DNA of 59,158 nt from Ectocarpus siliculosus (taxonomy: Eukaryota > Sar > Phaeophyceae > Ectocarpales > Ectocarpaceae). Shown here piece after piece: positions 1,774 to 50,819 of the stretch. Every line of letters starts with the position of its first letter. Within the stretch, counting starts at the first letter, position 1. The notes beneath the pieces were generated by a model, which worked only from the letters and a program-made list of their open reading frames with translations, was not told the origin of the DNA and made no database searches. The DNA lies in NCBI GenBank assembly GCA_000310025.1, contig FN649757.1, positions 632,955 to 692,112 of the forward strand, given 5' to 3'. The position numbers and the translations under genes were made by a program.

Positions 1774-4700
1774 TCAGGGCGATTCTAGTGTGGCGTGTGC
1801 TACGTCCAACCAGTCTTCCGCAGCAATGAACTCGTCCTGTGCACCTGCATCTGCCGGATGGGCATGACAAGGCGTTGAAGCCAACACCTGTGCAGCTTGA
1901 GCCACCGTGTGTGCGACAACTTCCGCGTGCTGTTGGCGTGCATCGTCGCGCGTGCGGTCATCACAACCGCCGACTGGCTCAGCTCCAGACGTACCCGCAC
2001 CGCCTTCCGAGGACACCATAGACGAGAAGTCCAAGTTCCGTCCAGAGCAAAGTCTTTCCGTTGTCCTGACCAATGAAATGGTGCGTGTGGGGGCGTACGT
2101 GTCACCAGGTGATTGGTAAAACGTACAGAGTTGCCCCTTCTTGAAGGATGCTACTGCAATTGCCATCGGTGGGTAAGTCCTGATGCAACACAGGCGAGCA
2201 GTTGACTATGCGTAGAACGCTTTCACAGCTATCTCAAAAATACTTCATAATGCACTCATGACAGGTGGGAAGAAAGCTTCGGGCACCCATGCGGCTTAAG
2301 AAACCAATCCACTGATGAACTTTCCTCAACAGGAGTAGGGATGAAGCACGCACACCACAGTCCCAAGCTGAACAAACCTGCACAGGCCGTTGTCACAAAT
2401 CCCAGATAAGCCGTCCCACTCCTCAAACGGCGGAATGGCCAACGAGCCTGCGGGCCGCGTGCTATTGCAAGCGTTCCGGAGCTTGCCGTACAGCCCATAA
2501 GCACTGGGGTGATCCATGCTTGCTACCATCGATAACGATAGGTGCGCTATGTGTTCTCTTCACCACAACGAAAAATCGAACAAGCGAAAATATCAAGCAT
2601 CGGGCAAACGAGAGAGGTCAGAAAGCCCATAGAACGCCTCGGGGCGACCAAGACAGAAAAAACTTTTTCGTCCGTCAGCGAAATGACCCTCAGCCGAGAA
2701 CACAAGGCGAACGAGTGAAGAGGAAAGGTTCACATCGGTTTCGACATTTCTCGCTGGTCTCTATCCTGCCCAACGCTGCCCAGAAAAACACACGCATACC
2801 TGCCATATTGAACGTGGTGCCATAGAAGCTACTGGAAGGGTACCCAGTTGCGGCGCCATTTTGAGCAATACCAGCTAACGATTTGGGGAATATGTTTCTT
2901 GCTTCTTCTGCGGAGTTGCCCAACAGCAACATGTACAATCAAGTACTTGGGAATACCAGTATGTGTAGGATTCTTGGCATCTATTTCAATGTTCATTTTC
3001 TGAAACTTGTGTTTTGGGGTTCCGTAGCCCAGGCTCGTAATGGGAGCGTGTTCCGCATGTCACTCACCCCATGAAGAAGCGGGAAAGTCCAGGGTATCGG
3101 TCGAAGATCTCGACGCAGCGTCGTAGCTTCTCCAGCGCTGCATTGGAATCCCCCTGGACGGCCTTAGCAAATACTAGGGCCCTGTGATGCGACATGGTTC
3201 ATTTCAGACAAAGAATGCGCTCCAATTTTCACTTGGACATTCTTCAATAGCGTGAGCTGGTTGTATCCTCAGTTTTCCTCTCTATTCTATTCGTACACGC
3301 AAGCCGAAATACCAGTTTGAACCCGAACACACCATAGCGCCCAATGGAGCGGCAGGAGTCCGTTGTTGCAGAACGATATTGTCATTGTCGACATGCTGAC
3401 AGGCAAAGGAATACGGTCTCACCCGTTGATGATCAGGCTGCCAATACCCGCGCGAACGTTGGGTCTTCCATCCCCAGTTGAATTCCGTCATTCAATACCC
3501 GTCGTGACGGCAAGCAGCGAATGAACAAGCCGTTGGGAGAGGCGAGGGCCGATAGTAAGAGGAGGTTACACGCTGTTGCGGGTGGGTCAGATAGAGGCCG
3601 ACGCCAGCGGTGTCGCACAACGACAAATTACGTCCTCTAGCTGCGAGCTACAGATGGTATGTTAATTAGCTAAACGTCGTCATGTCGAGCTAGCCTAGAC
3701 GCAATCTTCACCTCTCCGCCGCGTCTTCACAGGCTCCAAAGTCAGGCATAATTCCCATCATTGTTGATTGCATTACACTGGCGCAATCAGAGGCAGCGGA
3801 GCGGGAAAGAGCGCTGCCGAAACCACCGCCGATGCCTCGTATGTTCGACGCATCGTCGTCGCTGGGTTCACCGTCACCCCCGCCTGCCCACGCTGCCCCT
3901 GCCCCTGCCCCTTGCTTGCGCAGGGCTCGGTTCATGGTTACTACGGAGGATTGCAGGACAAACTGAGATACTTGCGCCTCGGTTGCAACTTGGGATATCT
4001 GTATTGGGCGAGTAGCAGAAAGACGCAAAACGCACACGGAATGCACCGGGGGGGCGGGGGGGGGGGGGTACTCATAATCCTTCATGCCCTAATCCTTACA
4101 CCATTTACCTCGCATCTATACAAAGCCGGGACGGAACACATTGGGTTCTCACCCGACCAGGCTCTCACATCACCAAGCGAGAAGCACCGTGAGGTATTCG
4201 GGGAGTCGCATGAAGGGTGCACTGCATCCTGCTAAGGGTGTTCGGCATCTCGTGCTTACCCCCTTTTTTTTTTTTGTCTTCCCTTCAAATCAGCGCCTAC
4301 AGCACTAGTGCCGTTTACTCCAACCCGTGGTCACACAGAAGAGCCCTTCTCTACCCTCCCCTCCTGCGGTACTTTGCCTTCCCCCTTGCGTACGAATGAC
4401 AGCTGCGTATGACACAATTTATATTCTGGTGCTTTCACTTCCAGAGACAGCTGTAAGCACTGTGTAACTGCCTCGAGGGTGCTTTACCAATTTATCACAG
4501 TGTGGTGCGATCATCCCCTTTGCACGCAGTGAGGGTTCTCGATCCCGCACAACATGATGTACTCGACCACCATTATGGTTACCACAAAAAAGAAAAAAAG
4601 TGACGCAAAAAAAAAAAGCGTTGACCTGGTCGCCGAGCGCACGAAGTGATCGGCTTGTTTTACAACTTCGTTGCCAAGCGAACAACACCCATCCCCGACG

Positions 4701-7700
4701 GCAAACACCGAGGGGGGGGTGGGGGGGGATTGTTGGTAGGGGGCGAAGTTGGTGACAACGCTTGCCTTCATACGTCAAGCACAGAAACGCCCACCACCAG
4801 ACGATAACGGCAAACGGTGAGAAGATCGGTCCCAAAAGGGCGACGAGATTTCTCAGGATTTGGCGTCCCTAGTTGAGCCCTATCTACGTTGCGGTCGAAT
4901 CAGCTGGAAACGATAACTCAATAGAAAGGCGCACCCTTGAACTCACTGTTGGAAATGAAATTTCTTGGGCGAGGAACGACTCGACCTCTTCGGAGTTGGC
5001 TCTCCCAGTGAACAGCTTGGTCGCTTCTCCGTGCTCGACGACCTCGGCATAACCCTGACGAGAACAAGAAAGGTGACGGCCAACAACAGCTGTTTCAGCG
5101 TCGCGTGCACTATCCGAGTCCTTCACGATATGCAGCCGGCTGCAAGTGTTGGGAAGATCGCCTGGTCTGACGACCGACCAATCGTTAAGATTCTTTGCGA
5201 AGGCCACCCCCAAAAAACCAATATCGATACGGAAAACGTTGGGAATGCACGAGGGTTATCGTTATCGGTTGTTTTCGGTTAGTAATATTCTTGCTCCCAT
5301 CTTTGAGACTGCCACCGATCTTCGTTTTCGTCTGATCTTGTTGCCAACGGGGATTCACGGGAATCGCCAAAGTTAGTATTCCTGCCATTTTTTTTCGCTG
5401 TTCTGTTGTCGTTTTCATCACTACCGTTGTTTTTTTGCATTTATTAGCGTTCCATCGACTTCAACAGTGCCCGCCCCTGTCCTCCTGCTAACAAACAGCC
5501 CGGGAATAGTGTAGAACAAAAGGTCAACACCCATGGATTGGTTTCACAACGGGGCGATATTTTCTACGGTTTTTCGCCCTTCTGTCGTGAGAGTTCTGTG
5601 TTCGCGACAACGACTTTGTGCGCTCCTTTGCGTCCTCGAAATATTCTACGGAAAACAGCTCCGTTACGTATCCCCGGGTGGTCAGGAGAGCCTCGAGAAC
5701 TATCTAGCGTCGAAGGTGTGAGTTCAAATACCGACGAGGTGTGATGATTTTCGCATTTTCATACCTGCTACTTGAACCACTTCTTCGCAAGTGTGCATGA
5801 GGGATGGACGGCTGAAGTATCTTCGCGAAAAACGTTCAAGTCACACGCATACATCACGGGATATCTCTAATGGTTCGAAACTGTTCGTTGGCGAGGCAAG
5901 GCCATGCGAAGGGTACAAACTGCGGCAAGAATGTTATATATATTGATGGCCAACTCCCGGACACGCCTTCGTCACAAAATTATTCTTACCACTGGGAGCG
6001 AATCTCGTGACCCTCTCTCTGCGGAGTCGCGGATAAAGCTGTCCGAGAGTGCCAGATAGTCGCAAAACTTCTCCTGGGAGGCGTAGGCAGAGGAACGATT
6101 GACACATTAGTTCGGCTGACAACGACTGATTCCCTCGCCATGCATTGCCGTAGCATGACTCACATGCCCCCCCGTCAGAGAAGTCAATGATGTACGATTT
6201 TCACCGTTCGGCCAAACGATTCCAACGGCTGGTCTGAAGAAACAGTGCTCACCACATCTCCCGAGAAGGCGTAGAGGTACCCCAGTATCGTCCACGCCCT
6301 TAAAACAAAAAAAAACAGGGGTGGGAAAAGATAGCAATGGTGACGTATTGTGAGCGACGTACAGTAGGTGTCCCGATATAGTGCCGGTTGAATAGTGCCA
6401 AACCGGCACTATTGAGGGCTGCCCGCTATAGTTGCGGTTCAGGCACTATCGGACCCCTCAATAGTGCTGGTTCACACCCCACACACAGCCTTTTTTCGCC
6501 TCAAGCCTTCCATGCCAACAGGCTTCGGAGACGGTTTCCCTTCGAGCTACAAGTAAGCTCGGTTTCTCTCGGTACGCGTTGCGTCTTCAAATGTCACGTT
6601 TTACCGATCGACGCAGGTTCCACCAATAGGCCGGGATTTCAGTAGTGAGGCGAGCGAAAAGGAAGATGGTGGTAGTGACAAAGGATATGGAAAATATAGC
6701 GAAGGATAGCAGTGATGGTGCAGGAGGAAAATATGGTGTTCAGGGGAACAACAAAGAGTTTCGAGCGAGATGACCTTCCAGGGGCGCATAATCTAGAGAT
6801 GAAAGCCCGATAGTGGAATATTAGTGAAGAGTGTAGTAGTGGTGGTAAATAAAATTCTTCTAAGGAAGGATGAAAACAATCCGAACCGAATGCGTGTTCA
6901 AGTAGTAAGCCTTGGCAGTCGCGTAGTTCTCCTCTCTCTGTTGCTACCATTTCTTTTGTCTTTTATCCAGAGAACAGCTCAGCCTCCTCCATGACACCCT
7001 CTCACGGCCTTGAGAAACAAATATTTTCTGTTTTTGACCGCACTGAGACTGGCGTCTTTCGGTTGGCCAGTCTTTTTTCTTGCTGCTGAAGGCTTGGTCT
7101 TGTCTCCAGCTTTTTATCGAAGGAACAGGGGAGTTCGTTATCTTCTTCGCCCCCTTTTTAGGTTGCATCTGCTTTTGTGTGCTCATGTAAGGAGCACTAC
7201 ATCCATCCATGATTTACCTCCAAATGTACATCGGGTGCGTTCATGAGCGTCTTTCTTTGGCTGTCGAGGGGTGCCTTTGAGGTTGCCTGAATAGTGCTAC
7301 GGCCTTCTTGCAATACAACACATAATAATTTGATAGCGAGGTAAACTTTTTATCGGGCAGCACGGTCTACGGCTAAAAGGCAGCAGCAACGTTTCACCAG
7401 CGAGTGCTTGCGCTGAGGTGGGAAGAGAACAACTGCTGTGCAACAAATCTATCTGGTCAATCAAGTTAATTTTAATGTGACCAATGCCGTGTTTTCGACA
7501 CTCCAAGAGTCTCACGAAACTTAATAAAGAAGCCCGCCCACGTCGCCCACCTCACGATTGATCCAAATACCGTTCGTTTGGCACTCTGTCATCCCCGCAA
7601 AGCGCAAGCGCTGCACTCTGAAGTCGAAAAGTCCTGAATAGCGCCAAGCCGGCACTATAGAGGGATTTTCAGGCCCTGAATAGTGCCGATTGAATAGTGT

Positions 7701-10700
7701 CAGTGCCCGGTATAGTGCCGGTCAAATCGCCTGGACACATACCGGCATATATCGGGACACCTACTGTAGTCCGTACTCGACCTAACGAGGCTGGCGAGAG
7801 GGCAACGCGCTACTTCATGCAACTTGGTCACAACCCAGGCGCGGACGGCCGTGCACCCTTGGGCCAGTACGAAGCTATCCAAATGATGCACCTGCTCGCG
7901 GGATATCAGCTCCGGATGCCATTCAACTCACTTTGCAACCTCCATGTTGGTCGGGCCTGTGAAACTTGCTAATGCCGCCTTCGCTCGTCGGAAGTAGTGC
8001 GCTACCTGTGTTCATGCGTTGAGGGCAAGCGTTGAGTCGAAAACATCGAAAACATAATTTCCGTGCATGACGTGTCCCGGACGTTCATCCGTGGCAAAGA
8101 TAAGTACCAGGTATAGACAAACCTGCAAGTGTCTACAATTCTATCTGATACTGACAACGTTTTTCAAGACCCCTCCACGGAATTTTCCGGGATTGTGCAT
8201 GCGCAGGGTGATGCAAGACGAGGAAACACATAGACCTAGCGCGCTGTATGGCACGTAGCTTTGAAACAAACAATAAAAAAGACAACAACCACCAGGGAGA
8301 GGGCAGTGTGGGCGCTTGGGGAACGAAATAAACTTTCGATGTGACCCTTGAGGTGACATATACCACGAACAAAGCCCGCGTGGATGCATCGTAGGCTGGT
8401 TTCCAGCGAAGCACGACAGGGTTATTTTTTCGGGGGAAGGAGCGCGAACTACCATCAGGGCAATTCAGCTTCGCGTGGCCAAAAAAATAACTAGACAGTT
8501 GTGCCAAATACTGTTGTCCGCGACGAGCATTTCGTTTCGAGTTTTGTCTCCGCGAACGATTGGTTGTCGGAGTGTTCGAACCCTCGACTCTTCCCTCCTT
8601 CGTGGCGAAGTGGGGCCAATTGACGCAGTGTCGGACATGGGCATGGCCGCACTATTGTAGCTGTGGCGAAACCAACACTGTGATGCAGCTGTTCGGATGA
8701 CCGTTGGGCCTTCAGAATGAGCAAGAAAAAACGCTTCATTCCCAGTTCTTACACTGCAGAATGCGCTAGAATCCGAACTGCGGGTCGCGCCTACACAATC
8801 ACCCCCAGCGATTCAGATTCATTTGACATAACTGTCAGCACGCCGTCACTTACCGACTCGATAGGATGGCCCTCCGCGAGTGCCCCGATAGCAACGGCAC
8901 ACCAAAACGTGCAAGTTGAAGGGTCTGCGGGAAGGTCATCTCGTTTCCAGGTATTGCCGACATTGTCTTCCGATACGATCGTGACAAACTTGTTTTCGAC
9001 GTCGCAGTCTCTCGTGGCGATTGACTGCTGCCGGGTAGGCGACATCATGAGTGTCACCATCACTTCGCGCACATCCCTGCCGTAAAGCACGATGACCGTG
9101 TTGCCATGACGGAGGCGACACGAACCGGGGGACGCGGCGAGAAATGAGTGCATGAACCACTGCAGCACATTCACATTCCACCGCAGGGCGGTAGACAGGG
9201 GGTTGCACCCCATGTTATCGCGGGGGAGACAACGTCACCGACACTGAGCCTTGTGCAATCGCTCGGAAATCCCCGACTTTCTGTGTGGGGCGGGTCAGTG
9301 GCATCGACAACGATGGAGGGCGGTGCCCTCTGGGGCGATTACAAGAGAAGTGATGGGCAAACGGGTATCACGTCCTGCGGAACATTGAGCACACCTGTTC
9401 TCTTGCTCAACGTTCACGCCTCAGCGCGTGTACTTCAGTACATTCCGCGGCTGATCCCGAAACAATTGCCCCAGGAGTTTTCTCCATTGGCGGGCCATCC
9501 GATCGGTCGTTGTGTCGTTTGTACAATATTCATAGACTACAACCATTGTCCCAGGCGCATAACCGGATCAAACCCTAAATGCCGTTCGCATCCAAACACC
9601 ACAACTGATTGCATGAAGTTCGGCACACGGCAGAGAAGTCGACGTTCCTCAATATATGGATGAAGGAGCCGGTCGAATACCTTCGGGTTGCGAGCGGAAG
9701 AAAACCAACCGAGTCGAAGAAGCTGCTCAGAAACACGTTCTCCTGCATGCCCACCAGGCCGGTCGCCGGAGAAGCGCTGAACCTGTACCTGGTCCCCAAG
9801 AGACAACGACAGGATGATTTGTTCTCCGTTAGGAGGCTCTCTTTGGGCCGGAGCAGAAGGGCATGGGATGAAGCTTCTCCTTTATGTACGTGGTCAGCAC
9901 TCTGACTCCCAGCAATGGCAAGAGGCCAACACCCTTGAGAAACTACCAAGAATCTTCGCCCAATCGGCATGGAAAGCTGTCTGCCAACACAGCAGTGGCC
10001 TCACCCGGGAGATCAACTAAACACAGGAGCAGAGCAGCATGGGCGTGCGTCGGGAAATATGGTCGGCAGCTCTACGACAGACCGAAAGCACCGTTTCGAC
10101 TTAACACCCGCCTGCTCCTGGCGGGGAAGATGGAGGCGCTGTTTGCTGTACGGTTGCATGACATGGGCCTCACGTCAAGAACACTACCGGGTGTTGCGGT
10201 CGATACACCACCGGTTTTACTGGGAGTTATTGGGTACCAGCGTAAGAAGGGCACCAACCGGCAACTCTCCTACGCCCAGACTCTGAAGAGGGTCGGGTGC
10301 CAGAGCGTGGAAGACATAGTTCGACAACGGCGCCTACTGTTTGCGGAAGCATTGGCAAGGCAGCCGGACGGGCGACCTGAACTGGTGGGGGGGGAGAACC
10401 CAGGCAAGAGATGCGCGGAGCAGAGCTGGCTGACGTGCCCGAAGGACGATTTCAAGGCGTTCAGGGCTAAACACGGACTCACTGACGAAGAGCCATGTGT
10501 GTTAGGAGCCCCAAAATTTGTTTGGACGGAAGCAGCGAATGTGGAGCGGGGTGTACCATGCCATGCGGGGGTACGGCATGGAGCTGAGAGGTTTATGACC
10601 GCCTGCCACAAGGATGAAGAGGAGGATAGCCGACGATGAGCGCTGAAACGAGACAAGGAAACCAGCAACAGCACAGACACGGCAAACACAAGGGAGCCAA

Positions 10701-13700
10701 AGGGGGCCAGCAGACCGGCGAGACGGCGAGGGGAGAAAGTGAACGAGAAGAGGCAGGCCGGGCGACTCGATATAGGCCGAACTGAACTCCTTCGCTGATC
10801 CCCCCCCCGGTGTTTGCCATCGGGGTTTGGGTTTTCGTCGCTTGGCAACGACGTTGTAAAACAAGCCCCCCACTCGGTGTTTGCCATCGGGATTGGGTTT
10901 TCGTCGCTTGGCAACGACGTTGTAAAACAAGCCAACTCACTTCGTGAACTCGGCAACCAGGTTACCGTTTTTTTTTTTTACCTAGGTTTTTTTTTTGGCG
11001 GTAACCATAATGGTGGTCGAGTAGATCATGTTGTGCGGGGTCGAGAACCCTCACTCCGCGCAACGGGGGATGATCGCACCACGTTGTGTTAAAATGGTCA
11101 AGCTTCCTCGAGGCAGTTACACAGTGCTTTCAACTGTCTCTGGAAGTGAAAGCACCAGAAAATAAATTAAGCCATACGTAGCTGTCATCCGTACGCAAGG
11201 AAGTAAGCACAAGATGCCGAACACCCTTAGCAGGATGCAGCTCACCCTTCATGCGACTCGCCAAATACCTCACGGCGCTTCGCGCTTGGTGATGTGAGAG
11301 CCTGGTCCGGTGAGAACCCGGCGTGCTCCGTCCCGGCTTTGTAGGGATACGAGGTCAATGGTCAAACGACTACGGCATGCACGACTATGAATACACACAC
11401 CCCCCCCCCCTCCCCGTCATTACACAATTGCATCAACCCCCCACAAGTGATGGCATACCTTCGCTGTTACTGGTGGCCCTTATTGTATTTGTTTGCTTGT
11501 GGTTGCGGCGTGTGTCTTGTATTTTCTTGTGTGTCTTTATATGTCATTTCGTTTTTTTCTTGCCGCTTGTTCTTTTTCTCATTCGTTTTTTTTCTCCTTT
11601 GTCCTTCTCAACTTCTTCCCCGAATGGCCTTCTCTCTTTCTCTGTGAAGTTGGTTTGCGGACCCTTCGGGCCCATTTTATTCAAGTATGCCTATTTTGGG
11701 TAAGTTAGCCTGTGACCACGGGAATCGATCGGTCAAGTGTTTGATCAGTACGGACAGATGAAGGTAATGGGTACAATAGAGAGATCGAAACGGTTTTAAT
11801 ACGGAGACAACACACACACATATACATAGCACAACTGGCAGATCTACGTTCATGACCGCTGAATAAGAGAAGTAACCAAAAATTGTGGAGGACTTTCGCG
11901 GACTTCGGCCGCGCCCCCTTGTCTCACCCAAACTTCTTGCGGAAGGCCGCTCTGGGTGTCGTGCCCTATCCTGGAGTGTGGCTGCGGTAGGGGGGTCACC
12001 TCGTCTTACATTTTCGGGTATGCAGAGATATCTACACGGTTTACCACGTCCTATTTCGCCATGAGATTGCCGACAACGGACTACACATTTTCTCCCATAA
12101 GTGCAAGATCTCACCCCAAAAGTGCACCCCTACCGTAGCATCAGTCGCTGGTTGTTTCTCACAAAAGAACATTCTGCTCAAGTGACATATATCCGGTCCG
12201 GCCAATCACTTCCGGGGGATGGGTACATGGGCACTAAATTAACCCCGGATAACGGTGATGAGGCGACTCCGTCGATGTTTTCGTCATTTGGGGCATACGG
12301 GCACAGACACGTGCACGCGCTGGTGTTGCTGTTGCCACACCCTAAGTCCATACCCAAAGTCGAGGGTCAAGGGAATCGCGCTCTTCTACTACGGGATGCC
12401 GCGACAACGACCACAGCAGGAAAGGTAGCAGAGCGAAAGGGGAGGATTCATGAAACCGTAGGGTCGTTAGCTGTATTCCATTACCTCAGTCACCACTGCA
12501 GATTTCGTGCCGTACTCCAACCTCTGGCTGACAGAACTCGATGATTGTTCGCCCCAAATCGAAAACGCTCGCGATCAACATGTTGTAATTCAAGGGTGCC
12601 TTCAAGTCTTGGTATCAATATGGTATGGTACGTGCACCACAAGAAGATCTGAGAGAAGAGCAAAGTTACAATAATCGCGGTGCCGCTCATTTGTCAAGAA
12701 CCACATGAAGGGAAAAATGAAAGAACAACATCCTCCTGCCGTTCTTCACCCTTCCTCTTTATCCGGACCAAGTGTACTCATGGACACCTCCGTTGGGCCA
12801 CAACAGCGAGCGGCCGCCGCCCGTCAGCCGGCGGTCGCCACAAGCGGTTAAGAACCTATGACACACCCTGCTGTATATCTGCAACCGTCTGCAACCGCAT
12901 GCCCTGTAAGACGTTCGGACGATTTCTCTGTTGTCGTCAACGGCTTTACGTGCTCCAAAATATCTCGCCGGGCTGACCACAAGACTTTCTGGTTCCTGGT
13001 CCCAGCCCAGATCCGTAGTCTACAACCCTCACGACGAAATTGCGAGCATTCGGTGGTAACTCGACTGGTTTGTTGACGAAAATCTGTGCTTGCAACCATG
13101 CCAGGCGCCGCCCACCACCCACGTGCGGGCTAGCAGGCTTATCGAGAGTATCAACAGCTTCATAGGCCCACATTCTTGAATACGTCGGCCACCTCCGGTG
13201 CTTCCATCTTGTTGCAGCATGGCATGGGAGATTTCTTATTGGTTTGGATGATCGCGAAGATTATAGCTCACGGTACCCTCGTGAAGGCAAACAATTGCTC
13301 TGATTGTATTGAGCTTCACCTCTTGATAACCATGTCTTTGGTTCCACCATGTCTGACGCCAAGCTTCGTTGCTCCTGCTGCCTCCACAGACGTCCTTGCC
13401 TCGATATACGTCCCGCTTTTTTTTCTGTATGGCGTACAGATACGCACTTTTCGCTTTCTGTAGGTGCATCCACCTTCCACGCCCATGTCCACGCAGCGGC
13501 TGTAAACGGAGGGCATCGATTTGGGGTGTTAAGAGCAGTTTCGGCGTCTTGTTGAACGAGACAAAAGCCTGTCAGTGTTAGCGTGTGTGTCTACATTGCT
13601 AGCATATATCGCGCTAAATGGCGGACCAATGAGATACATCAGTGTGGCCAACGGAACACGCGTGCATGTGCGTGGTGTGTGTTTGCGTTGCACTACAAGG

Positions 13701-16131
13701 GCATCGCAGCTCTGATTCGCTAGTCGTTGAAGAGACATCTCTGTGGCGACGAGAAAAACGTTTCGGCTGCGGAGTCCCCCTACAAATCAGGTGGCTGGCC
13801 TGTTCGCTCGCCAAGGTCGTACAGGAAACGGCTGATCACGTGCCCCCGCAACCTCTCGACCGCGACTAACTCCTGCGAGACGGACTGCCGTTGCTTGTGT
13901 TAGGCCCATACGGCTCGGTTTTGGGCTATGTTGTCGGTCACCGAGACCAACAGCGGTCACAAACACGTATTTGTGGTCAGAGTCAGGTATGGCAAGAATT
14001 AACCGCGGGTTGGGGTTGTATGTCGATATATGTAGCGCACTCTGCCTCGGTGTCCTTCCGGCGAAAGCATAGTCTGTACGTTTGAAGTCTCTCGCCCGCG
14101 TCCCCGCGATACCGTTATATATTTGTGTGTGAAACTCCACCTATGTAAAGGCTTTGCTAACCCTATGGACGAAGGAGTTCGTGAGGTAGCTGTTGTCTAT
14201 TGCGAACGGCGGCGGTGGGGTACCGTCATCATCGTTTGCGCTGATAGAATAAAGGCCAATCAATCCGTTTGACAATACAGTCACAGCCAGCCAACAATCA
14301 ATCGACATGCCTCGGGTTTTCGGCCCTCCCAACTACGGCAGTAATCTCCGGGCCTGGCCCCTCGCCATGCTCTGCTGGAAAAAAAGTGTTGATGAAGCCT
14401 AAGAAGTGCCGTAGATGGGAGTCGAATCAATGACCGATGCAGGCTAGACTGTCCATTGACAAAATAACAAAATAAAGCAAATTTTGCCGAGGCTGGGGCT
14501 CCTCTTGTGGGCTACAAATGGCCGCTACATAGGTTGTAGGGGTTTAGTCGGGTTCAGGAACGGCGCTCAAGTTCTTGTGTTTAATCAACGTTGAGCATCT
14601 ATCTGTCTCTAGTCTCTAAACTACCGAAGGATATTACATAAATGCGGATCATGATTCTACATTCAATAACACTCCGTACATTAAAGAGATACCCTATGTT
14701 GATAACTCGTTTTGAAAAAAGAAAAAAACGCAACAGCACCATGTAGCACCAGAAAGATGCACACGAGACACACTTATAGACCGGCCCGAAAGCTTCCGGA
14801 AAAACAGACATTATCGTTGGTTCTCGAACAGGGCGGCAGGCGGGAAGAGGCTTCATTGTATCATGAGTCTGCCGCCACCCGCCCCATTTGAAATCAAGAT
14901 AAAAATCATACGAGTCAACTTCCAAGTTCAGGAGAGCTAGAACGGGAGGCACCCAAACAAGGTCAGTTTCAGCCTTGATGTACTGATGTCCATACGGTAG
15001 ATATGGACATGGCTAGAAATCCTGTGGATCACCGTATCGTGTACCACTCTGTCCGGGAATATAGTACCGATTTGGGGTTAGGGCTATGGTTAGCAACAAC
15101 GCCTTAGAATTAGAAGGTCGTGAGTTCGACTCTCACTCCGAGCAATTTTGTTTTTTGGTTTTCCCGATTTTTTTGTTTTTTCCATCTTCCCTCTGACTTT
15201 GCCCTCTCAAGTTGCTCACTTTTCCAAAAAAAAGTATTTTCACCGGTTGACAGCAAAGAAGCAACCGAAGTACTTGAATGTGTGGGTTTACAGGTAGCAT
15301 AAGCTGTCAAGATTACAAAGCAAAAAAAAAACATGAAACAAATCTTTTTGAGCCCGTACGAGAGAAAAACGGGACCTACTGCCCGTTGTCTCGGGAGATC
15401 CACATGCGGGGAATTTTGTCTCAGATGGGGGGATGAAACTTATCCATCCCCTGTTTATGAGTTTATTTCGTACACTCTACCTTGTCCGAGCATGCCGCAA
15501 AGGAAAGTATGCTATAAAAACGTGTCGAACACCCCAAACTACAAATCGGTACTATATTGCCGGATAGCCAAATCGGTACTATGTTCCCGAACAGAGTATA
15601 CTGCTGTAGGTCTTCTTGTATGCATAGTCTATACATACCCGGTATGCATAGTCTATACATACCCGGGCAGGTGCGCGCTCTCTCTGTAACCAACCTCAAG
15701 AGAGCCGGGTGAAAGGGTTACCCGGGCTGAGGTGGAGGGGCGGGCAAAAAAATGTATGTGGCTGCAGCACCGCAGCATAGACATTCAGTTCTGCCCGTCC
15801 GCCTGTCTTGCAAACATGTGTTAATATATTTGAAATGTGGTACACACAGCTTGACGGTGACATGGCACACGGGCGGTCTAGCTATGTTTTTTATTTTTTA
15901 CACCCAGGCAGCAGCCGCCCTTGATTGAGTTAGCTGGTTCAGTCAAGTTCAGTCGGGGGGGTAGAGTCAAGAAAGCCGGTTGCGCAAGATACCTATGCTA
16001 CCGCCGAACCCAGCCGTCGCTTGACCTGAACCCCCCGTTGGATGTCGAAGCCCTGTCGTGATACGCATAACAATGTACTGCTTTGTAGGTTCTTGCTTCA
16101 GGGCGGGCTAACATCCACGCTGCTGCTGCTG

Positions 16132-16186
<55 letters not shown>

Positions 16187-17620: not shown

Positions 17621-17644
<24 letters not shown>

Positions 17645-17651
<7 letters not shown>

Positions 17652-37157: not shown

Positions 37158-37329
37158 TATTTTCCGTTTTTTCGGGCTCTCACAGAACGTATTTTCCAAT
37201 TGTTCAGGCCCTCTCACAATCATCGTTTGACCCTTTTCTCACTTCGATTCAATTTCGTTCCACTCACCTTCTCTCCCACGCACCTTCTCGGCGTTTGGTT
37301 GTCTCTCGCCCTGTCACTGTCTCCGTCTG

Positions 37330-37520
<191 letters not shown>

Positions 37521-39668: not shown

Positions 39669-42600
39669 TTAACCGCAGGTCCCGTTGTTCGCGTCACTAG
39701 ACGCCAACATAGCGTGTATTACGTCGAACCAGTCTTCCGCCGCAATGACATGGTCCTGTGCGTCTTCATCAATCGCGTGCGAGGGTAGCACCTCTTCAGC
39801 TTCAGCCGGCCATACGCCTTCATCGCTGCAGGTAGGGTCCTCAGCAGCATCACCGACCGCTTCAAGTCGAGAATTGACGAGCGACGGGGATGTTGAACCT
39901 TCTGCCAGCAAGACGTCTTCCTCAAACAGAGTGTCCATGGCTCCATCACATCCTTGTGGAGCCTCTCCCACAACTGCCAGGAACGTTTCGATTGCCGAAG
40001 GGGTGCGCAACGCACTTGGTGAAGTCGAAGAGGCTTGGTATTCCTTCACATTGCCAATGCTCTGTAAGCTCTCCGGTCTGAGCACCTTGATGTCTTCCAA
40101 GGGCGCCGTAGGCGGTAAGTCTGCTTTTCGTCTTGCGAAAAGAGCTTCAATTGACCTGAACAAAGTGACGCATGGAAGAAGGCATGGGGGGTTACGGAAC
40201 TAGAGGTGAACACGATTCCTCCTTCCGGGAGGGTTCTTAAGGCATCATCGGTCGGCCATCGCCTCAGTAAGCGAAACAAAACGGCTTGCGATAGCCTGAC
40301 CTTATTGACCAATGTTTTTACGTCACCGCAGGTGGACAATGCCAAGACCTCTACAGCATTGACCAATCAGCCCACCGACAACTGTGTGCCACTCAGATTC
40401 ATATACGCATACCTGCACGGGACATTGTCGCAAAACGCTGATATCCCTTGCCATTCCTCCAAGGGCGGAAACGCCAACGAGCCTGGGGGCCGCGTAAGAT
40501 TGCAAGCGTTCCGGAGCCGATCGTACAGCCCGCCATCCCTAGAGTCGCCGATGCTTGCAGCCACCGACAACATGACATGTGCCATGTGATTTCTTACCGC
40601 GATGAAGAGGGTAGATCAAGGGTGGGGGCAAACGAATAGGTCAACATTCTCGCGGAATGCTTTCGAGGGTCCAACACAAAAGAAAGAGCCCTCTGCTCAT
40701 TTTAGAGAAAATACACGCAAGAAGCGACGGACGCGTGAAGGATATCAAGTATAACAGTCACAGAACGTCAAAAGACTGTGTTTCACTGGTCCCTCGCCAA
40801 CCAAAATGCACATGAACAGCACGCATTTGCAGTATGTGTATTAGGCACATATGATACAAGGAGAATGGTAGGGATGCTACTCACCCCATCGCGAAGCGAG
40901 TTAATCCAGGGAATCCCTCAAAGACCTCCACACAGCGTTCTAGTCTCTCCAGTGCGCCCTTGGTATCCCCGCTAACCGTTTTGTCAAAGAACAGGGTCCT
41001 GATTGATGCGGAACGGTTGAAGAAAGATAGAAGTTCAACAACAGTTAGACAGGTTTTAGTGTCATGCCTCCATTCCATCCGCTGCAGTTCTGTTGACTGA
41101 AGCGGCCACGGCGGTTGCTATGTTCGTGTTCCGTGATGGCCAATGCCAAAGATAACTCTAAGCGATCCAAATCATCCATTTCCGCAGGAGTACACCCCAA
41201 GCTCCGTCCATGTTTTGGGCATCAGAACTGATCCACCTCCTGAAGCGGTAGAGGCCCACGAACACGCGAAATTAGCAAGAGAGGCATTCTGATACATTCC
41301 CATAAGAATGCGGGTCTTGGCACGGGTCCGTACATCGCACAGGCCGGGGTCTTGCAGGGGGTGCGGAAAAAATTCAGGGTTCCAAGGGACTGAATTGATT
41401 GTCGCACAAGTATAGTTCACTTCGCACAGGGGTGTGCGGAGACCCCGATACCTCTAGCGGGGTACCTGTCGCGGGCCACTACTGTGCCAAGGTAGCTTGA
41501 ATCATGGGCTCCACTGCTGTACTTTGGAATCGTAACGTTGCTCATGTGCAAGTGATGTTTTAGTATTTCTAGAACCGCCTTTTTGTTCAACGATGTGATT
41601 ATTGTCGGAATCAGCAAACGGTTTCCACTCAATCAACCAAGAACGCGTACAAACCATATGAGACCAAAGGGTCATAACCAATTGCGGTACTACTCAAAGA
41701 ATAGGTAGGATACCTGGAAACAACACGAATACCTGGCCAAGGACTGGCAGGAAAAATGGTACATCTCCCGTAGGCCACTACGTACTTGTTCGTTCGTGGC
41801 ACCGAACCAAACCTCTCCTCCACTGGCCAATACCCCGCTGCAGCCAAAATGTTCTAGCGCCAGCCTACCAACTGGTCCTGGTGTGCTGGTGTGCTGTTGT
41901 GTCTGTGTTCGTTATGTTATGGTCCTGATGCTGCAGTACTGCACACGAAGTGCTGGTGTGTGTGTGTTGTGATTTGTTCAGGATCGCACTCATCGGAGTC
42001 TTGGCACGGGGTTGCGTGTTCAAAACAACCCACATCGCCGCTTTGTATATATTCAGAATACAGCACTGGTGGGGGTCATCGCACGGGGTGTGCGTCATAC
42101 TTTCAGGACAAAAAAAATATTTCATGTTCCGCACAGGAATCGGGTACATGGCACGTATCGGCGTCTTGGCACCTCTGTGCGATAGAAACCCGAGAAAGAA
42201 AACATTTTAACAGACGGCCGCACACTGTGCCAAGACCCGCATTCTTACGGTACTTGTCTCACCCGTTGATGATGAGGCCGCCAACACCCGGGCGAATATC
42301 GGGTCTGGTGGAATCACCGTTTTTTTTCCGCGGTCCAATACCCCGGGTAGGTTGACAAACCCCACGGTTCGGGCAATAAACCGTTGGGAAAGACGACAGC
42401 AGGCAACAAGTACAGGATAACGCATGCCATTGTGAGTGAATGGAAAATATCATACCGTGTAGGGAGTGGCCGGCGGGCAGAGGTTACAAAAGAAAGTACC
42501 AGCCTCAAGCTAGACATGTTTCATGAGCCGACAAAAAAAAAAAAAAAAGTTCCTCACCTCTCCACCGCGTCTTCAAGATGTGCGAACCCTGGGAATTGAA

Positions 42601-45600
42601 GCTGGATCCCTTCCACAACGTCACAGATAAGCTCGCCGCCATGTGGAAGGCGGGCGAGGGAACAAATTCCGCCTACTCTATCGCCGAAGTTCGACCCCTT
42701 CGCAGCACCATCGTCGGTATGACGCGCGTCATCCGCTCCAACATACGCTGTGTCGTCCGTCGTGCGTACAAGTTGTTGGATGCTAATTTCAATCGCCCTG
42801 TGATATTGCATGATATATCGACAGATGTGCGCCTCGGTTGCGACTTCGCACGCCTGTAACGTGCGAGAGTGGCAGCAAGTGTGCACCCGGTGGGACAAAC
42901 GTGCGCAGACATTGCTGGGTTGAGGTGAACTTGGTCATACCGCGAGCCCCTTTACCCCGATGCGCGAAACGCGGAGAGGCTCAGCCAGCACCAGACAGTG
43001 ATATAAAGCGGCCCGTAACTCGTGCTCAAAACTCAATAGAGTGATTGATTTGCCCATGAGTTGTAGCACACTACACTACTGTAAGCTCGATCTGTGTTGC
43101 AGTACATATGTACATATGCAATCAGTTGGAAATGGGGACTCTTAAGGCTGCACACGCATCAACGTACCCCCGGAAAAGAAACTTCTTGGGCAAGGAGCGA
43201 CTCGACCTCTTCGGCTTCTGCAGTCCCAGTGAAGAGTTTGATCGTTTCTCCATGCTTGACAACCTCGGGGAACCCCTGGCGAGAAGAAGAAACGTCACGG
43301 CCAACAACAGCAAAAGACGTTTGGTCATCGCGCCAACTGTTTATCGGAGCGGTCGAGGCACAAGCCGGCTGCATGTGATGCAAGGGCCCGCCGGTTCACT
43401 TAAGGCATCCGTTCGTGTATGAGCGAGGAAAGGGCAAATTGCCTTCCTCTGACAGGTCCCACCCATCCAACGATTCTCACCACTGGGAGCGAATCTCGTG
43501 ACCCTCTGGCGGAGTCATGTACGAAGCTGTCCGAGAGTGCCAGATACTCGTGAAACGTTTCCTGGGTGGTCGGCAGGTTGGCAGGTGGGGAAGGTCAACA
43601 TTCACCAAGCTGTGTTTCGACTGAAAACGTGCCATGCCACGCGCTAACAAAGTGAAGCTGCAGCTTTTAGACTTGAGATGCCCTGCCGAAGGTGTTATTC
43701 GCCGAGCGAAACATCGATGATACGAGTTTCGCACAGGATGGCCGTAAGACATTACATTGCGTCTGCTCACCATGTCTCCTACGAAGCCGTGCAGGTACGC
43801 CAGTATCGTCCACGCCCTGAAACAGACGTGGAAGGGAAATAATTGATAGCTATGAACAAGGTGATTTGAGCGACGCGAGCAATACTCGATCGACGAGGCT
43901 GCCGTTGGCAAGGCGCTACTTGGTGCAACTTGGTCGCAGCCCAGGCGCGGTGCGAAGTTGACCAAATGATGCGTCTGCTCGAGAGGAATTCGCTACGGAC
44001 GCCGTTGAACTCACTCACTTTGCCACCTCGAAGTTTGTCGGGCCTGAGTATCTTGCCAACGCTTCTTTCGCTCGTCGGAAATAGCTCGCCGTCTTCAAAA
44101 CACACGTCGGGGACAGGCTTGTCATTCGCCATAGGCATGCCTTGCAAGAGGATATACTGCAGAAGGCGACGCTCAGTAAACTGTTGCGGACTTTCGAATG
44201 GGTGGGGAAGAGCGTGGGAAACAATCCGCACGAAAGGCGTGGACATCATATTCCGCGACTTCCGAAGAAAGGTCGCACTCACTATTTACCCAGGTTTCTA
44301 ATTGGTTTCACTACTGTCTCGCAATCGGTGTCTTCCACACTGCAAGGAAAGGGGGATTTCCGAACAAATTGTTCCGGGAGCTCTGACGTCATGCTGACCG
44401 CACCACGGTACAGCAGCATTTGTCGCGAAAGGAATGTGAATCCATCGTCACGACTACTACGACTGTCCGTGTGAAGCACGCAGGCCGGAGGGGTACCAAA
44501 TTATGTCACCCTCCGCCCCGTTGCCAGTAGTCTCAGCCCATGATCGTCGTTTACAGGACAGGGCAGTTAATTGGGGTCACCAATCTATCATCGGAACGTC
44601 CACATTTTTAGCTGCTCGTTGCCAGCGAAAATGACAGCTGTGTTCAAGTCGGTTTTATTCGAGGGTTCGGTTTTTCCAAGCATGACTGCCCCCCCGTGCG
44701 AGATTTCGCCTGGGTACATGCATTCCTGGCTCTTCTCCCCATTGCGAACGAAAGGCGAAAATCTCCAGGGTAGGGCGAAAAAACATGTGCGCCACACCGA
44801 ATCGGGTTTCCTGTGACAAACCTACCTGTTCGGGCGAACGTTGAGGGTTTCCGAATTTGCCGGGAAAAAACATCACCCTGTTTCTTCTGTAAACTGCGGA
44901 GGGCGCTGGACTCTAAAGTGTGCGGGCTGGGCCTCCATAACCAACCCAAACGATTCAGAATCATCGGCAACACTGCCAGCACGCCGTCACTTACAGATTC
45001 GATAGGATGGCCCTTAGCGAGTGCCCCGATAGCAATGGCACACCAAAATGTGCAGGCTTTCGGGAGGTCGTCTCCTTCCCAGGTGTTGCCGACGTTGTCT
45101 TCCGACACGAGCGCGTCGAAATTCTCTTCGGCGTCGCAGTCTCGCATAGCGATTGATTGCTGCTGGGTAACCGACATCATGAGTGTCACCATTGTTTCGC
45201 GCACATCCCTGCCGCCGAGTGCGACGAACGTGTTGTCGTGGACGAGGGAGGCGTCAGGTCGCTAGAAATGCCGTGCAAAATGAGTGCATGAACCACCCCA
45301 CTGCCTTCCACCGCCTAATACGGGTCAGGTGTCACGGAGAGTATTGACCTATTTGCCGTGGCACGAAAAGCCCATGTTCCATGGGATGACCGCCCAGCAA
45401 GGACATAAGGGGATGGGCAAGATGACCTCCGGAATCTCGGGAGCGACTACTTGTACAAGACAAGGGTTTCAAAGTCGGCCACGGGTGAGAGCATTGGCCA
45501 CATACTTGATCACGCAGATCCCTGGGGCCGATAGCTACACAGCTCATTCGATTCTGCGCATGCACTCCGCGAGTGCTCCCGAAATAAGTGCTGTCCGCCT

Positions 45601-48600
45601 CCGGCTCCATCGTTCAATCTCACGAGGATTCGCCTCAGCAACAGGAGCGAGAGACAGCCTTGGCGCGGTCTTTCGCCGCAGAAATGCATCAACCCAGACG
45701 AATGACGCGAAACCAAGCCTACGCGTCTCTCACTTACATACGACCAAACCTTCCGGCAACAAGTAGCACATCTCACACTGAGAACAATCGACATTTCTCA
45801 GCATCGCGCAGAAGGGGATGCTTCTTGAAAAGCACCTTCCGGTCGTGAGTGGCAGAAATCCAACCGAGCTAAAGAAGCTGGTGAGGAAGGAGTTCTCCTG
45901 CATGCCCACCAGGCCGGTCGCTGGAGAAGCTCTCAACCTGAACCTGGTCCAACAGAACACAGTCGTCGGATGGGTTCTCCATGGATCAAGCTCGCTAACC
46001 CTGTGGCGGGAGGACACTCCACGTTACGCTCCCTCTTTGGTGTATACTTATGTCAAAGGGGTTCTGACTCCCAGCGTGCTAGGTGCTAACGTGTTGAGGG
46101 TGAAGGGTAGCAAAGGCTGTGAGGAAAACTCGTGACTCTATTGTACCACCTAAGTGGCCGCTGAAACGATCAACTCACAACCATGTTTGGGAGGCCCTGC
46201 AGCCTTCCGGTCGCGAGCCCGATTCTCACTGACTCAGACCCTACCTTTGGCTCTCCCTCCCTACCAAGCAACTGCGCTCAAACTACTGAGTTACATCCCG
46301 TCTAGGCGATTGCTATGTTAGCTCTTGGTACTTCCCCCTGCGCCCGCACACCAACAATAACAACAACAATAACAACAACGACAACAGCGGGAACCACTGT
46401 AGTTCCTGGTATTCAATGATTAGAGTTACACAGGTACACACAAGCCCGTGCCGCTGCTGTTGCCTCACGTTTAGCGCTCTTCTATCACCAGTCCAAGCTC
46501 ACTCCTAAGGGCCAAGAGACTCAACTCTACGAATATTGGCTACCACACAAACTATTGCAAGATCAAGGGGCAGAGATATGGAGGCCGGTTTGGTTGTTCG
46601 CTACACGCGTGTTCCTCGCCGCAGCAGACTTGCCTATTATATTGTACACCTGATTTGGTTGACAGACTCGATGAGTGCGTTCACCCAAAATCGAGCATTA
46701 TGGCTAGCTTCTTCACGTCATGGCAGGGCCCAGGGCCACGGTTCAAGGCTGTCGTCCCTCAACCGGCAACAATCACAAGCCGCCCCCCGGACGTGATTCC
46801 CCTGAACCATATGCCCTGGGGTCATTCTTCCCGATTGAACAATTGAATGGAGCAAAATCACCTCTTGATAGCCACGTCTTGGGATCCACGATGTCTTGCT
46901 TCCGCCTTGGTCACTCCCTCCGTGTCAGTAGGCGATCTTCTTTTTTGGTAGGGCTTGCAGGTACGCGCTCTCCGCCTGCTGTAAGTGCATCCGTCTTCCA
47001 TGCCCATGCCCACGCAGCGCCTTGTGCAAGGAGGGGCGTTGATTGCGACGTGACGTTAGACCGCACAACAGACGCCGTACTGGACGTGGGGGGGTTGTGC
47101 GAAAGTCGTTATTATTAGCTTAAGCACGACCGCGCTAACCGGCTGGCAGATGAAAAGACGACATTCTCAGTGTGGCTGCCAAATAGAAGGCGCTTGTCAA
47201 GGCAATGACCTGGGAACCGCCATGGGAGAGGCTGCTACTGTAGAGGATATCCTCCGGGTGAAAAGCCGGAAACGGCAGTACAGCAGATGATGGAGAGCAA
47301 ATGAGTGCACGCATCGACCGAGGCTTCTCTTGTCTAGACTTCTCGCCTTCGTGTCGACCCCCTCCGCCTACGTGTGTGTCTTTATCATTGCAGCATCGAC
47401 CGCTCCGACAAGCTGACCAATATAAAGACCCAACTCTCAGCGTAGGTGCGCGCGTATGTGTCAATGTTTCACTAGGTGCCATAAAAGGGATGGCTGAGGC
47501 GCATCCCTCGCCGAATACAATAGTAGAAAAAAAACATAATCAAAATTTGTTTTGACTCTAATACACAAATTCGGACTGGGGGGTCCAAAGTTTTCCATTT
47601 AGGGAAGAAGATTTTGAGATAAGAAAATTTCCTGGAAACTTCATGCAAGTAACTATTTGTAGATTGGCTGTGGGGCAACAGTCCTCCTATCCCACCCAAC
47701 GAACTTCCCCTGTTCGCAGGTGTACTGCTGTTGCTTTGCGGTGCGCTGCGTGACAGCGTGACAGCTGCACCCTGATGACAGCGCTCGATCCCACTGCTGT
47801 CGAGTGTGTGTGTATGCATGCGTGTGCGTGTCTGTGTTGCCCCCGCACTCGCACTCGCACCAGCACGGAGACAGGGAGTACACATACTGGCCGGCAGCCT
47901 CTGAACGAAGAGCTATGCCGCACTTCAAGCGTTCGGGAGAGGGTTCTTGGGACCGGGCGGGCACACCCAAGTCAAACGCTCTCCCCAGCAGAAGCAGAGA
48001 ACACTCTTGCGCGGGAAAGGACGCGCCCGTCTACACCAGGAGGCAACTACGTGCTCTTCCTCCTCTCTGCTCTTTGCAGGCGGTGCTGCCACCTCCTCCA
48101 CGTTGTCGGCTGTTGTCTCCGCGGTTCCGGCGCTCTTCTTCCCCCTTGCCTCAACCTCTGTGTGTGACGGGCGCGTGTTGCTGACCTCAAGCCGCGCAAC
48201 AACCCTAACTTGGCTTTCTGGCCGTGAAGCCTCCCCCGTCTTGTGTTGGTGGCGCGCCAACTCCAGGGCCTTTCGCTGGGCGCTGGCCTTCTCTTTGGCC
48301 GTGCGGACTGCTTTGTGTGCGTGTGTGTGGCGCCTGATGTGATACATCGAAGAATGTCGCTAAATCGGGAAATCGGGAACAGTTTTCCACAAAACGAGCC
48401 TCCCTCCGCTCTTAATCTGGAAAATATTTTCCTTATCGTGGGTTCTGGCGAGACTGTCACGAACGATCCTCGGAACGACGGCTTAACTCAAAATCTGTGT
48501 CCTTAATCTGGAAAAAATTCAAGTCCGAAAGAGTCTAATTTCGATTTGGTTCTTTGAAGCAACGTCAAATCACCACGCTCAGGAGGCGAACAGCGCAGCA

Positions 48601-50819
48601 GAGTACACCATGAGGCGGAGGTCCGTCGGCAAAAGAAATAATTCGGGAATAAGATTGGAGACGGTTTTTATTTGATCTGGCTCGGGTTCTCTCTATGTAG
48701 GCGGACTCGAGCCTGCTATTGGAAGTATTGGAGTTAGCGAGGTGAGACTTCTACAGTACTGTAGCTCATGAACCCACCAGCACCATGCGGATGGCAAACG
48801 TCAGCGGGTTCCCAACGGATACTGTAGCAAGGTGAAGGACGGGTACCCACCACTTTGCGAGAATTTGCAAAAAGATTGAACCAGAGTTAGAGATCATGGT
48901 GTGGAAGAGAGTGGTCGAAGGCTTTTGATACTTGAACCCTTCAGAGCAACGGCGGTGGAAATAGAGAGGGGTCTCAAAGAGTTCCAGGGATGACTATGAT
49001 GAAGATAGAGCGGTAGCAACCGCTCCAGAGCGAAGCGAAGTCGGACAGCTATTTAGGGATTCTTATCATGGGGCTTCTCCCCTTCTACAAGACAAACACT
49101 GGCATAGATTTGTTTAGAACATGTTCGTTCGAGTTTTCGTTTGTTATCCCGGTATGCATGCATGAAATACAAGACTGACGTGTTTTCATTGGTCAGCCGG
49201 CAAAATGTGCGCGTTCGATGCGCACATACGTGTACACATGTTCAAAACACACACACGCGCCCACACAGACCTGTGATTGGTCAGCCTGCAGCACGGTCAG
49301 AATAATTTACAGAACTTGTCTACTTTTTTTGCGCTTACCAAGGGTATACGTGAAAAAATTCAAGACACATAGGCCTACTAATCGAAAATCGGGGTCATTT
49401 GGGGGGGGGGGGGGGGTATACCCATGTGTCCCTGGTTTTTCCGCCGAGGCATCGGCGCTCCGGTGTCATTTGGGGGGGGGGGGGCATATACCCATGTATC
49501 CCCGGGTTTTCTGCCCAGGCGTCGGTGCTCTGGCGTCCCGTTCTCGCATGGTGTGCATCACCGCTGGCGCTGCTGGGGCTGTGGAGCTGTGGGAGATCCC
49601 CGAGAGATGGCAGACACCCCGCACACTACAGAGTCATGATCGCAATCTTCGCATGCATACCCCAGGAGCAGCCGGTTTAGCCCAACAGTCGCCCGTCCGT
49701 GCGGCCGATTAGTCAACTCAAACGTAACCCTACAACAAGACCAAGGCTACGAGTAGATTTGCGAGACTATGTTCCCTGTTGTGCAGTTCTACAGCAGATA
49801 GAGGAGGCGGCAAGGGCAAGTGTGCAAGGCAGGTGGTTCAATGTGAAAGCTGGTCAATGACTTGTTCCAATTGAATTGGACTGATTTCGAGCTTTGATCG
49901 ATACTACTATATATTACTACCGCTGTACTTCGTAGATATATGTACTCCCCAAACCTGAAAAATAATAAATAATAAATAAAAATAAAAACACCCATATCAC
50001 AATATATCTTGCCATTATTGTGTACTCCCCAAACCTGAAGAATAATTAATAAAAATAAACACATCCATATCACAATATATCTTTATATTATGCACTCCCC
50101 AAACCTGAAAAATAATCAACAAAAATTACACGCCCATATCACAATACATCTATTTTTTAGAAAGTGAACATAACCTGTCTGCGCACAACATATGACACAA
50201 CAAACAAATGGTGGTGGCTCTCAGGTCTCGCCCTCCATCATCAGTAGATATAGTCTAGCCGTCCAGCAATAATATTAGGCGCTACGCGAACTAGGCTGCT
50301 GTGGTAGCACGGCTGGGTGAGTGTGGGCCGGCATCGATGACGAGGAGGTAGATGGATGCAGAACGGGTAACGAGAGTGAGGCACGTTTACCATCCATCTA
50401 CCGCTGCAACCTCATCGCAAATTTTTGACGATTCATGGTAACTTTTCGGAGTTCGTTCCCCTCCGGGGGTTTGGCCGGGTGGCCCATGTGTCTGGAAGTT
50501 TTGTTCGCGTAGACCCCTTGCGCTTGCTTACATTTGCTTACATACACGAGTACGAACAGCACTAAACATGTCGGAGCCCGATGGAACCTCTCAATAGAAG
50601 CGCTCCGAAAGCAGAAGTTCAATGGTGAAAAACATTCAGCAGAAAAAGCAGTATGGCATAGAACCATCCATCGTTTCTACTACTACTACTGCTGCAATAT
50701 GTAGGAGGCGTGAACTCCGAGAGACGAGAGACGCACACAGCTTACCTGCACGGAGTTGAACCGTCGCATTTCCTTTTTAGGAAGCTGCACCTGTCGCAGG
50801 TTTTAAGTACGCTAAACAT
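39669..50819 (-). CDS. Zn2Cys6 (fungal-type) transcription factor, gene 2, 12 exons, apparently intact
   Basis: Predicted nuclear DNA-binding regulator of 633 aa. Exons in coding order: 50819-50746, 47020-46862, 45943-45836, 45208-44995, 44092-44019, 43816-43771, 43561-43481, 43275-43168, 42853-42558, 40998-40885, 40553-40413, 40155-39669. The total is 1,902 bases (3 x 634), all junctions are phase-compatible, GT-AG throughout, with no internal stop. Exon 1 starts MFSVLKTCDRC and with exon 2 completes CDRC-X6-C-X5-CRRC-X8-C, followed by basic residues (YSRRRARTCKPYQKRR). The middle region mirrors gene 1: ATGLVGMQEN, SVGFLPL, CTFWCAIAIGALAKGHPIES, SYFRRAKEALARY, AWTILAYLHGFVGDM, YLALSDSF, EVESLLAQE, LERLERCVEVF, GLYDRLRNACNLTRPPGSLA. 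Exon 12 is an acidic, Ser/Thr/Pro-rich tail ending HVIAAEDWFDVIHAML, a possible activation domain (inference). Intron 1 is 3.7 kb. Spacing to the TrpD2-like gene is about 2.3 kb, on the same strand. Confidence 0.83.
47925..48460 (-). other. Charged open frame inside gene 2 intron 1, unassigned
   Basis: A minus-strand frame reads AKEKASAQRKALELARHQHK, then a segment rich in Glu, Arg, Ala and Thr (VEVAAPPAKSREEEE-like). The composition would suit a coiled or disordered protein segment. It has no start context, no splice partner that I could assign and no counterpart in gene 1. It is recorded as a stretch of unexplained coding-like composition within the intron. Confidence 0.2.
49390..49535 (+). 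repeat. Tandem ~75 bp duplication with poly-G tracts
   Basis: Two copies of TCATTTGGGG... (a G run of 15 and then 13), TATACCCATGT, a TCCC-rich segment and GGTTTT(C/T)C(C/T)GCC(G/C)AGGC(A/G)TCGG. The G runs could form quadruplex structures. The block lies in intron 1 of Zn2Cys6 gene 2. Confidence 0.75.
49938..50158 (+). repeat. Three-copy AT-rich tandem repeat (~70-83 bp unit)
   Basis: The unit runs ACTCCCCAAACCTGAA(A/G)AATAAT, then an AAT-rich stretch, then CCCATATCACAATA(T/C)ATCT. Copies begin near 49,940, 50,023 and 50,093 and differ mainly in the length of the A/T stretch. The array lies in intron 1 of gene 2. Confidence 0.8.

Follow-up and report, generated by a model that had tools for sequence, protein, structure and literature searches.

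Gal4-type transcription factors carry a zinc cluster at the N-terminus and an acidic segment at the C-terminus. The stretch analysed here (the window; 59,158 nucleotides, C32:632955-692112, within the 932-kb contig C32 of a 189-Mb genome assembly of 492 contigs) holds three loci, termed W1, W2 and W3, from a family that resembles such factors. Like the fungal Zn(II)2Cys6 proteins Gal4, Put3 and Pho7 (PF00172), the family has an N-terminal CX2CX6CX5CX2CX6-8C cluster with a basic loop, and like Gal4 it has an acidic C-terminal segment. Unlike the fungal factors, its genes have 13 exons, one of them a conserved signature exon, lie in a large array on a single contig, and gave no match to Fungal_trans or another Pfam effector domain.

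Fungal-type clusters in stramenopile or haptophyte nuclear genomes appear in a table of PMC4827209, which lists fungal TRF/Zn-clus gene counts of 27 for Emiliania huxleyi, 14 for Tisochrysis lutea, 10 for Nannochloropsis gaditana, 8 for Pavlova, 1 for Phaeodactylum, and 0 for Porphyridium and Chlamydomonas. The family described here shares that cluster type; unlike the genes tabulated for those algae, it is a single subfamily with 54 signature-exon matches, 30 of them on one contig. Two other systems are likened to it from their published descriptions: the ZnCys lipid regulator of N. gaditana (PMC11989004), also a Zn(II)2Cys6 protein of a stramenopile alga but a single gene, and the Ectocarpus Zn_clus genes Esi0071_0075 and Esi0071_0081 (PMC4108028), brown-algal genes with nearby identifiers that by their names share one supercontig. 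The main texts of a stramenopile transcription factor survey (PMC4222949) and of PMC12629598 contain none of the terms Zn_clus, Zn2Cys6 or zinc cluster, and titles and abstract openings, from a literature sample with few subscription papers, gave no description of the array. PMC12629598 counts 90 EsV-1-7 proteins in Ectocarpus species 7. The EsV-1-7 repeat family is large in the genome studied here (880 first-look candidates, of which 150 were scored and all of these exceeded the cut-off, against 0 of 14 control genomes), and the genome is therefore likely that of a brown alga.

The three loci, two of them open genes and one a pseudogene, very probably belong to a large family of sequence-specific transcription factors that has duplicated locally. 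Self-comparison revealed three homologous segments, all on one contig in this assembly, in the minus/plus/minus order that an earlier, sequence-only reading had given for three paralogous loci. A cysteine search of the window placed the first halves of the zinc clusters at 16749-16781 (-), 17791-17823 (+) and 50766-50798 (-). The outer loci, W1 and W3, are open, and the middle locus, W2, is a pseudogene. Features are listed below in window positions.

1774-16802, minus strand: W1, open 13-exon Zn2Cys6 gene, 641 amino acids with a 74-nucleotide (nt) exon 1; Zn_clus 27.9 bits
16729-16802, 13320-13499, 9681-9788, 8854-9076, 7932-8005, minus strand: W1 exons 1-5
6253-6298, 5990-6073, 4947-5054, 3712-3998, 3423-3464, minus strand: W1 exons 6-10
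3068-3181, 2378-2557, 1774-2179, minus strand: W1 exons 11-13
16729-16802, minus strand: W1 exon 1, first half of the cluster (Cys1-Cys4), donor GT right after the split codon
13320-13499, minus strand: W1 exon 2, second half of the cluster (Cys5-Cys6) and linker
9681-9788, minus strand: W1 exon 3, the 108-nt signature exon
1774-1860, minus strand: W1 C-terminal tail, 28 codons plus stop; acidic-hydrophobic, putative activation motif
16803-17781, no strand: head-to-head intergenic stretch between W1 and W2, about 1 kb
17782-33929, plus strand: W2, pseudogene, mosaic of W1 (exons 1-4) and W3 (exons 6-13)
17782-17843, 26261-26437 (broken), 27659-27766, 28401-28614, plus strand: W2 exons 1-4
27659-27766, plus strand: W2 exon 3, signature exon
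29893-29938, 30150-30233, 30442-30549, 30841-31097 (3' end unsure), plus strand: W2 exons 6-9
31374-31415, 31730-31843 (in-frame stop), 32154-32333, 33425-33929, plus strand: W2 exons 10-13
39669-50819, minus strand: W3, open 13-exon Zn2Cys6 gene, 660 amino acids; Zn_clus 31.3 bits
50746-50819, 46862-47020, 45836-45943, 44995-45208, 44019-44092, minus strand: W3 exons 1-5
43771-43816, 43481-43561, 43168-43275, 42558-42853, 42263-42304, minus strand: W3 exons 6-10
40885-40998, 40413-40592, 39669-40155, minus strand: W3 exons 11-13
50746-50819, minus strand: W3 exon 1, first half of the cluster
46862-47020, minus strand: W3 exon 2, second half of the cluster and linker
45836-45943, minus strand: W3 exon 3, signature exon
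39669-39779, minus strand: W3 C-terminal tail, 36 codons plus stop; acidic-hydrophobic, putative activation motif

The exon models come from comparing the three window loci with eight further copies, A-H, from C32:1-200,000 (11 copies in total), exons being called splice-aware from conserved reading frames and acceptor/donor pairs of matching phase. Since the search imposed GT-AG, the canonical splice sites do not count as support in their own right; independent support lies in the matching lengths and phases, which yield stop-free spliced frames of 599-720 amino acids in 10 of the 11 copies. Eight of the 11 are complete; the two incomplete ones among the ten stop-free copies are A, which is without exon 1, and B, which is open only with an alternative exon 4 acceptor and ends early. 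The family gene has 13 exons, with lengths fixed in every copy for exons 3 (108 nt), 6 (46), 10 (42), 11 (114) and 12 (180), and exon 9 measures 266 nt in all eight of A-H. The sequence-only reading had proposed 12 exons, missing the 42-nt exon that precedes the 114-nt exon in all 11 copies, and its 141-nt exon 11 was not reproduced, that exon being 180 nt throughout. Other lengths that it gave for W1, W2 and W3 do agree with the models: 74 nt for exon 1 and for exon 5 in W1 and W3, 108 for exon 3, 223/214/214 for exon 4, 46 for exon 6, 108 for exon 8, and the 114-nt exon in all three. The 81-nt exon 1 and 46-nt exon 5 that it assigned to the pseudogene are unsupported. Its outer limits, 1774 and 50819, are the exact ends of our gene models. 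For W1, an in-frame ATG further upstream would give a 137-nt exon 1 (automatic model); the 74-nt start was set by analogy with W3, where a stop rules out an upstream start.

An intron splits the cluster between Cys4 and Cys5. Once spliced, all three proteins scored pass the Pfam cut-off of 21 bits for Zn_clus (W3 31.3, W1 27.9, copy E 28), in keeping with the earlier call of fungal-type Zn2Cys6 genes outside fungi, and Zn_clus was found in six of six aligned members at E up to 10 (best E 4.1e-8). The full CX2CX6CX5CX2CX6-8C pattern is present in nine of the 11 spliced copies, as CX2CX6CX5CX2CX6C in B-H and with a final CX8C in W1 and W3; it is incomplete in A, where the lack of exon 1 leaves just the second half, and in W2, where it is broken. 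All nine fall within the Zn(II)2Cys6 range CX2CX6CX5-16CX2CX6-8C as given in PMC4827209. A profile search of solved structures in the PDB returned Pho7 (1.8e-5), Put3 (3.3e-5), Gal4 (0.02) and other zinc-cluster proteins, all over the cluster. Two maltose-binding-protein fusions (E 0.48) matched outside it and look like chance.

Exon 1 was sampled at 21 sites picked from 71 Zn_clus matches, in addition to 10 other sequences. All but one of the 21 (C11:25 kb) fit CX2CX6CX5C. Four cysteines, a glycine and a proline occur in 30 of 30 exon-1 sequences and an aspartate in 29, although the searches themselves selected for the cysteines and partly for the other three; lysine or arginine stands at loop positions 8 and 9 in all 30. 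The donor GT follows exon 1 at the identical base in 29 of 30. A local group of five Zn_clus rows at C33:3424251-3574348, covering profile positions 11-37 or 16-37, lies on a contig where neither the signature exon nor exon 12 had a match, and so apparently belongs to a different Zn_clus subfamily.

The three window genes form the last part of an array that comprises about 30 copies. The signature exon encodes a conserved 36-residue segment; as a DNA pattern it gave 30 exact genome matches, whereas the reversed pattern, used as control, gave 0, and the recurrence of the signature is therefore beyond chance. The signature-exon peptide had 54 genome matches at E up to 0.1, at least two of them partial: 30 on C32, 10 on C11, six on C34, two each on C16 and C30, and one each on C1, C3, C116 and C492. 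Exon 12 had 47 at E up to 0.01. C32 makes up 0.5 percent of the genome, and its copies span 18.7-678.9 kb, an array of about 660 kb with a median spacing of about 20 kb. The local cluster that the sequence-only reading had thought worth following is thus real, and its proposed genome search for the signature was productive, the size of the cluster having been understated.

Relatedness within the array follows position. Exon-12 identity among 27 C32 copies declines with distance (Spearman -0.56; Mantel, 0 of 5000 permutations), indicating that the array grew by local duplication, and the nearest relative is one of the two closest neighbours for 16 of the 27. Neighbouring C32 copies share orientation in 20 of 29 pairs (permutation p 0.02), which rules out simple inverted duplication as the general mode. 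The earlier suggestion of inverted rather than tandem duplication holds by appearance for the 3' part of W2 and W3, a tail-to-tail inverted duplicate, but not contig-wide; the general mode is local tandem duplication with inversions, inverted duplication being only local. An exon-12 tree of 47 sequences (59 columns; 13 of 43 inner branches starred, so that only broad grouping was used) unites W1, W2, W3 and a copy at 557 kb (100/99) and five of the six C34 copies (100/99), and several others cluster by position.

A recent duplicate of W1 is present on C32: around exon 12, 216 of 217 bases match at C32:557.7 kb, and identity around exon 3 is 98 percent over 406 aligned bases at 565 kb. The head-to-head layout of W1 and W2 is repeated at C32:577.1-579.0 kb (577.1 and 578.9), with exon-1 stretches 93-97 percent identical and an intergenic stretch that is longer and only partly similar. 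Compared with window positions 2360-17843, C32:557.7-579 kb shows 98-99.5 percent identity in the vicinity of exons 3 and 12, which could reflect either true duplication or uncollapsed assembly. Another head-to-head family pair was noted at C16:2383353-2384677, its exon-1 sites (2383.4 and 2384.6 kb) about 1.2 kb apart and its motif and donor intact on both sides.

Elsewhere in the array, copy B has a broken exon 4 frame and an early stop in exon 13. Ten open reading frames (ORFs) from C32:1-200 kb comprised one copia-type reverse transcriptase (800 amino acids, C32:40637-43036, between copies B and C) and nine without a match. The contig has long N runs, which may be assembly gaps, at C32:1-14269 and 97595-108145; exon 1 of copy A may lie within the first.

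W2 is dead by several lesions, as the sequence-only reading had held for the middle copy. A TGA lies upstream of the cluster in the cluster frame of exon 1, exon 2 has a stop and has lost Cys5, exon 11 has an in-frame stop, and exon 5 is not recognisable, the top score being 5 where the intact genes reach 46 and 43. In addition, W2 is a mosaic: its exons 1-4 show 82, 82, 95 and 90 percent identity to W1 and 77, 67, 81 and 85 percent to W3, whereas exons 6-13 are all nearer W3 (exon 6, 98 vs 78 percent for W1; exon 12, 89 vs 76). In the introns, the first 150 bases are 92 percent W1-like after exon 3 and 85 percent W3-like after exon 4; other introns are noisier, those after exons 6, 9 and 12 being slightly nearer W1 with many gaps. 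Recombination or gene conversion between neighbours would be the simplest cause. The long first intron of W2 contains a tandem array (window 21667-23948; 123-bp unit, 18.5 copies, 89 percent matches); the unit length is a multiple of three, and more than 300 codons run without a stop in several frames, yet this is no gene. A TC dinucleotide run of 94.5 units (window 37326-37513) lies between the tails of W2 and W3. Ten further window ORFs, some antisense to family introns or exons, had no Pfam match above cut-off (one was sub-threshold), and the window gave no Rfam match at gathering score and no tRNA.

Zn_clus was the sole convincing Pfam domain in six members, with TPR_8 at E 0.1 in one and two others sub-threshold. 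Fungal_trans, the middle homology region whose profiles we take to be PF04082 and PF11951, matched none of the six at E up to 10, though HMMER filters may hide remote matches. NCBIfam and PHROGs had no match to the family protein, nor did phage records in a tblastn search that used residues 1-277 of copy E.

Selection was gauged by simple counting of nonsynonymous and synonymous rates (dN and dS), with W2 left out, damaged B included and A used from exon 2. Mean pairwise dN/dS over the 28 pairs of A-H was 0.24 for the cluster and 0.17 for the signature exon, and exons 6, 10 and 12 were constrained too (0.20-0.32). Less constrained were the linker (0.50), exon 8 (0.74), exon 9 (0.61) and exon 13 (0.55). 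Whole-gene ratios, taken only for the 17 pairs above 55 percent identity, were 0.41-0.59. Within exon 13 the extreme C-terminus is the best-conserved block (0.83 vs at most 0.60 elsewhere). Its 12-codon block had dN/dS 0.25 vs 0.64 for the rest of the exon (A and C-H, B being left out for its early stop), and a W-[LF]-D core with a net charge of -6 to -10 is found in all nine copies that have the tail.

The sequences thus point to a locally duplicated family of 13-exon genes under purifying selection, with an N-terminal Cys6 cluster, a signature exon and an acidic-hydrophobic tail. Our best reading, from architecture and selection, is that the family is lineage-specific and that its members are mostly functional, putative Gal4-type activators. 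As in Gal4, Put3 and Pho7, the cluster would bind two zinc ions and contact CGG-type half-sites; the middle region may carry dimerisation or signal input, and the tail would recruit coactivators. The DNA-contact loop is near constant, whereas divergence is seen in the linker, in exons 8 and 9 and in the first part of exon 4. The paralogues therefore probably recognise similar DNA elements, with differences in the spacing of the sites, in the partner or in the signal that induces them.

Several points weigh against this reading. None of the known effector domains was matched by the middle region, which leaves the putative activator function to architecture, and a search for CGG half-site pairs in 10 upstream regions with 54 patterns found none convincing (top z 3.6, the regions partly sharing ancestry). 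Constraint is not uniform, the cluster dN/dS of the W1/W3 pair alone being 0.59 over 27 codons, and all these ratios are rough, with dS near saturation in some segments. With B damaged and W2 dead, some share of the 54 matches may be non-functional.

The regulators of the array might instead make up a regulon that responds to stress or metals, with copper and oxidative stress as its inducers. PMC4108028 includes a table in which the Ectocarpus siliculosus Zn_clus genes Esi0071_0075 and Esi0071_0081, possible members of this family, are up under those conditions. With one published table behind it and nothing of metal response in the window, we hold the idea as tentative. Less likely is a mostly decaying family, in which recent local duplicates were fixed without function around a few active ancestral members. 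The W2 pseudogene, the damage to B, the near-identical recent duplicates and whole-gene dN/dS values that we judge high for transcription factors would all fit decay; stop-free frames in 10 of the 11 modelled copies, eight of them complete, and constraint on the cluster, signature exon and tail even among neighbours speak for maintenance. More doubtful still is a diversifying regulator repertoire whose logic resembles that of a receptor repertoire, individuals or cells using different members; its elements would be a DNA-binding head that hardly varies, a linker and partner or sensor segments that diverge, promoters paired head to head, and recombination mosaics. Chance resemblance of a cysteine motif in unrelated genes is scarcely credible, for although most single family exons fall below the Zn_clus cut-off alone, the spliced cluster passes the curated cut-off and both halves occur with conserved splice phase in nine of 11 copies.

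Brown algae evolved complex multicellularity independently, and few of their regulators are known. In our judgement a zinc-cluster array of about 30 genes over 660 kb would rank among the larger local transcription factor expansions in brown algae; the published table, in its rows for seven other algae, gives 0-27 such genes per genome. The cluster class itself was already known in algae, and what is unusual is so large a local family of fungal-type regulators outside fungi. A near-constant binding domain joined to a diverging linker and middle region leads to a testable prediction, that the paralogues would share sites and answer to distinct signals.

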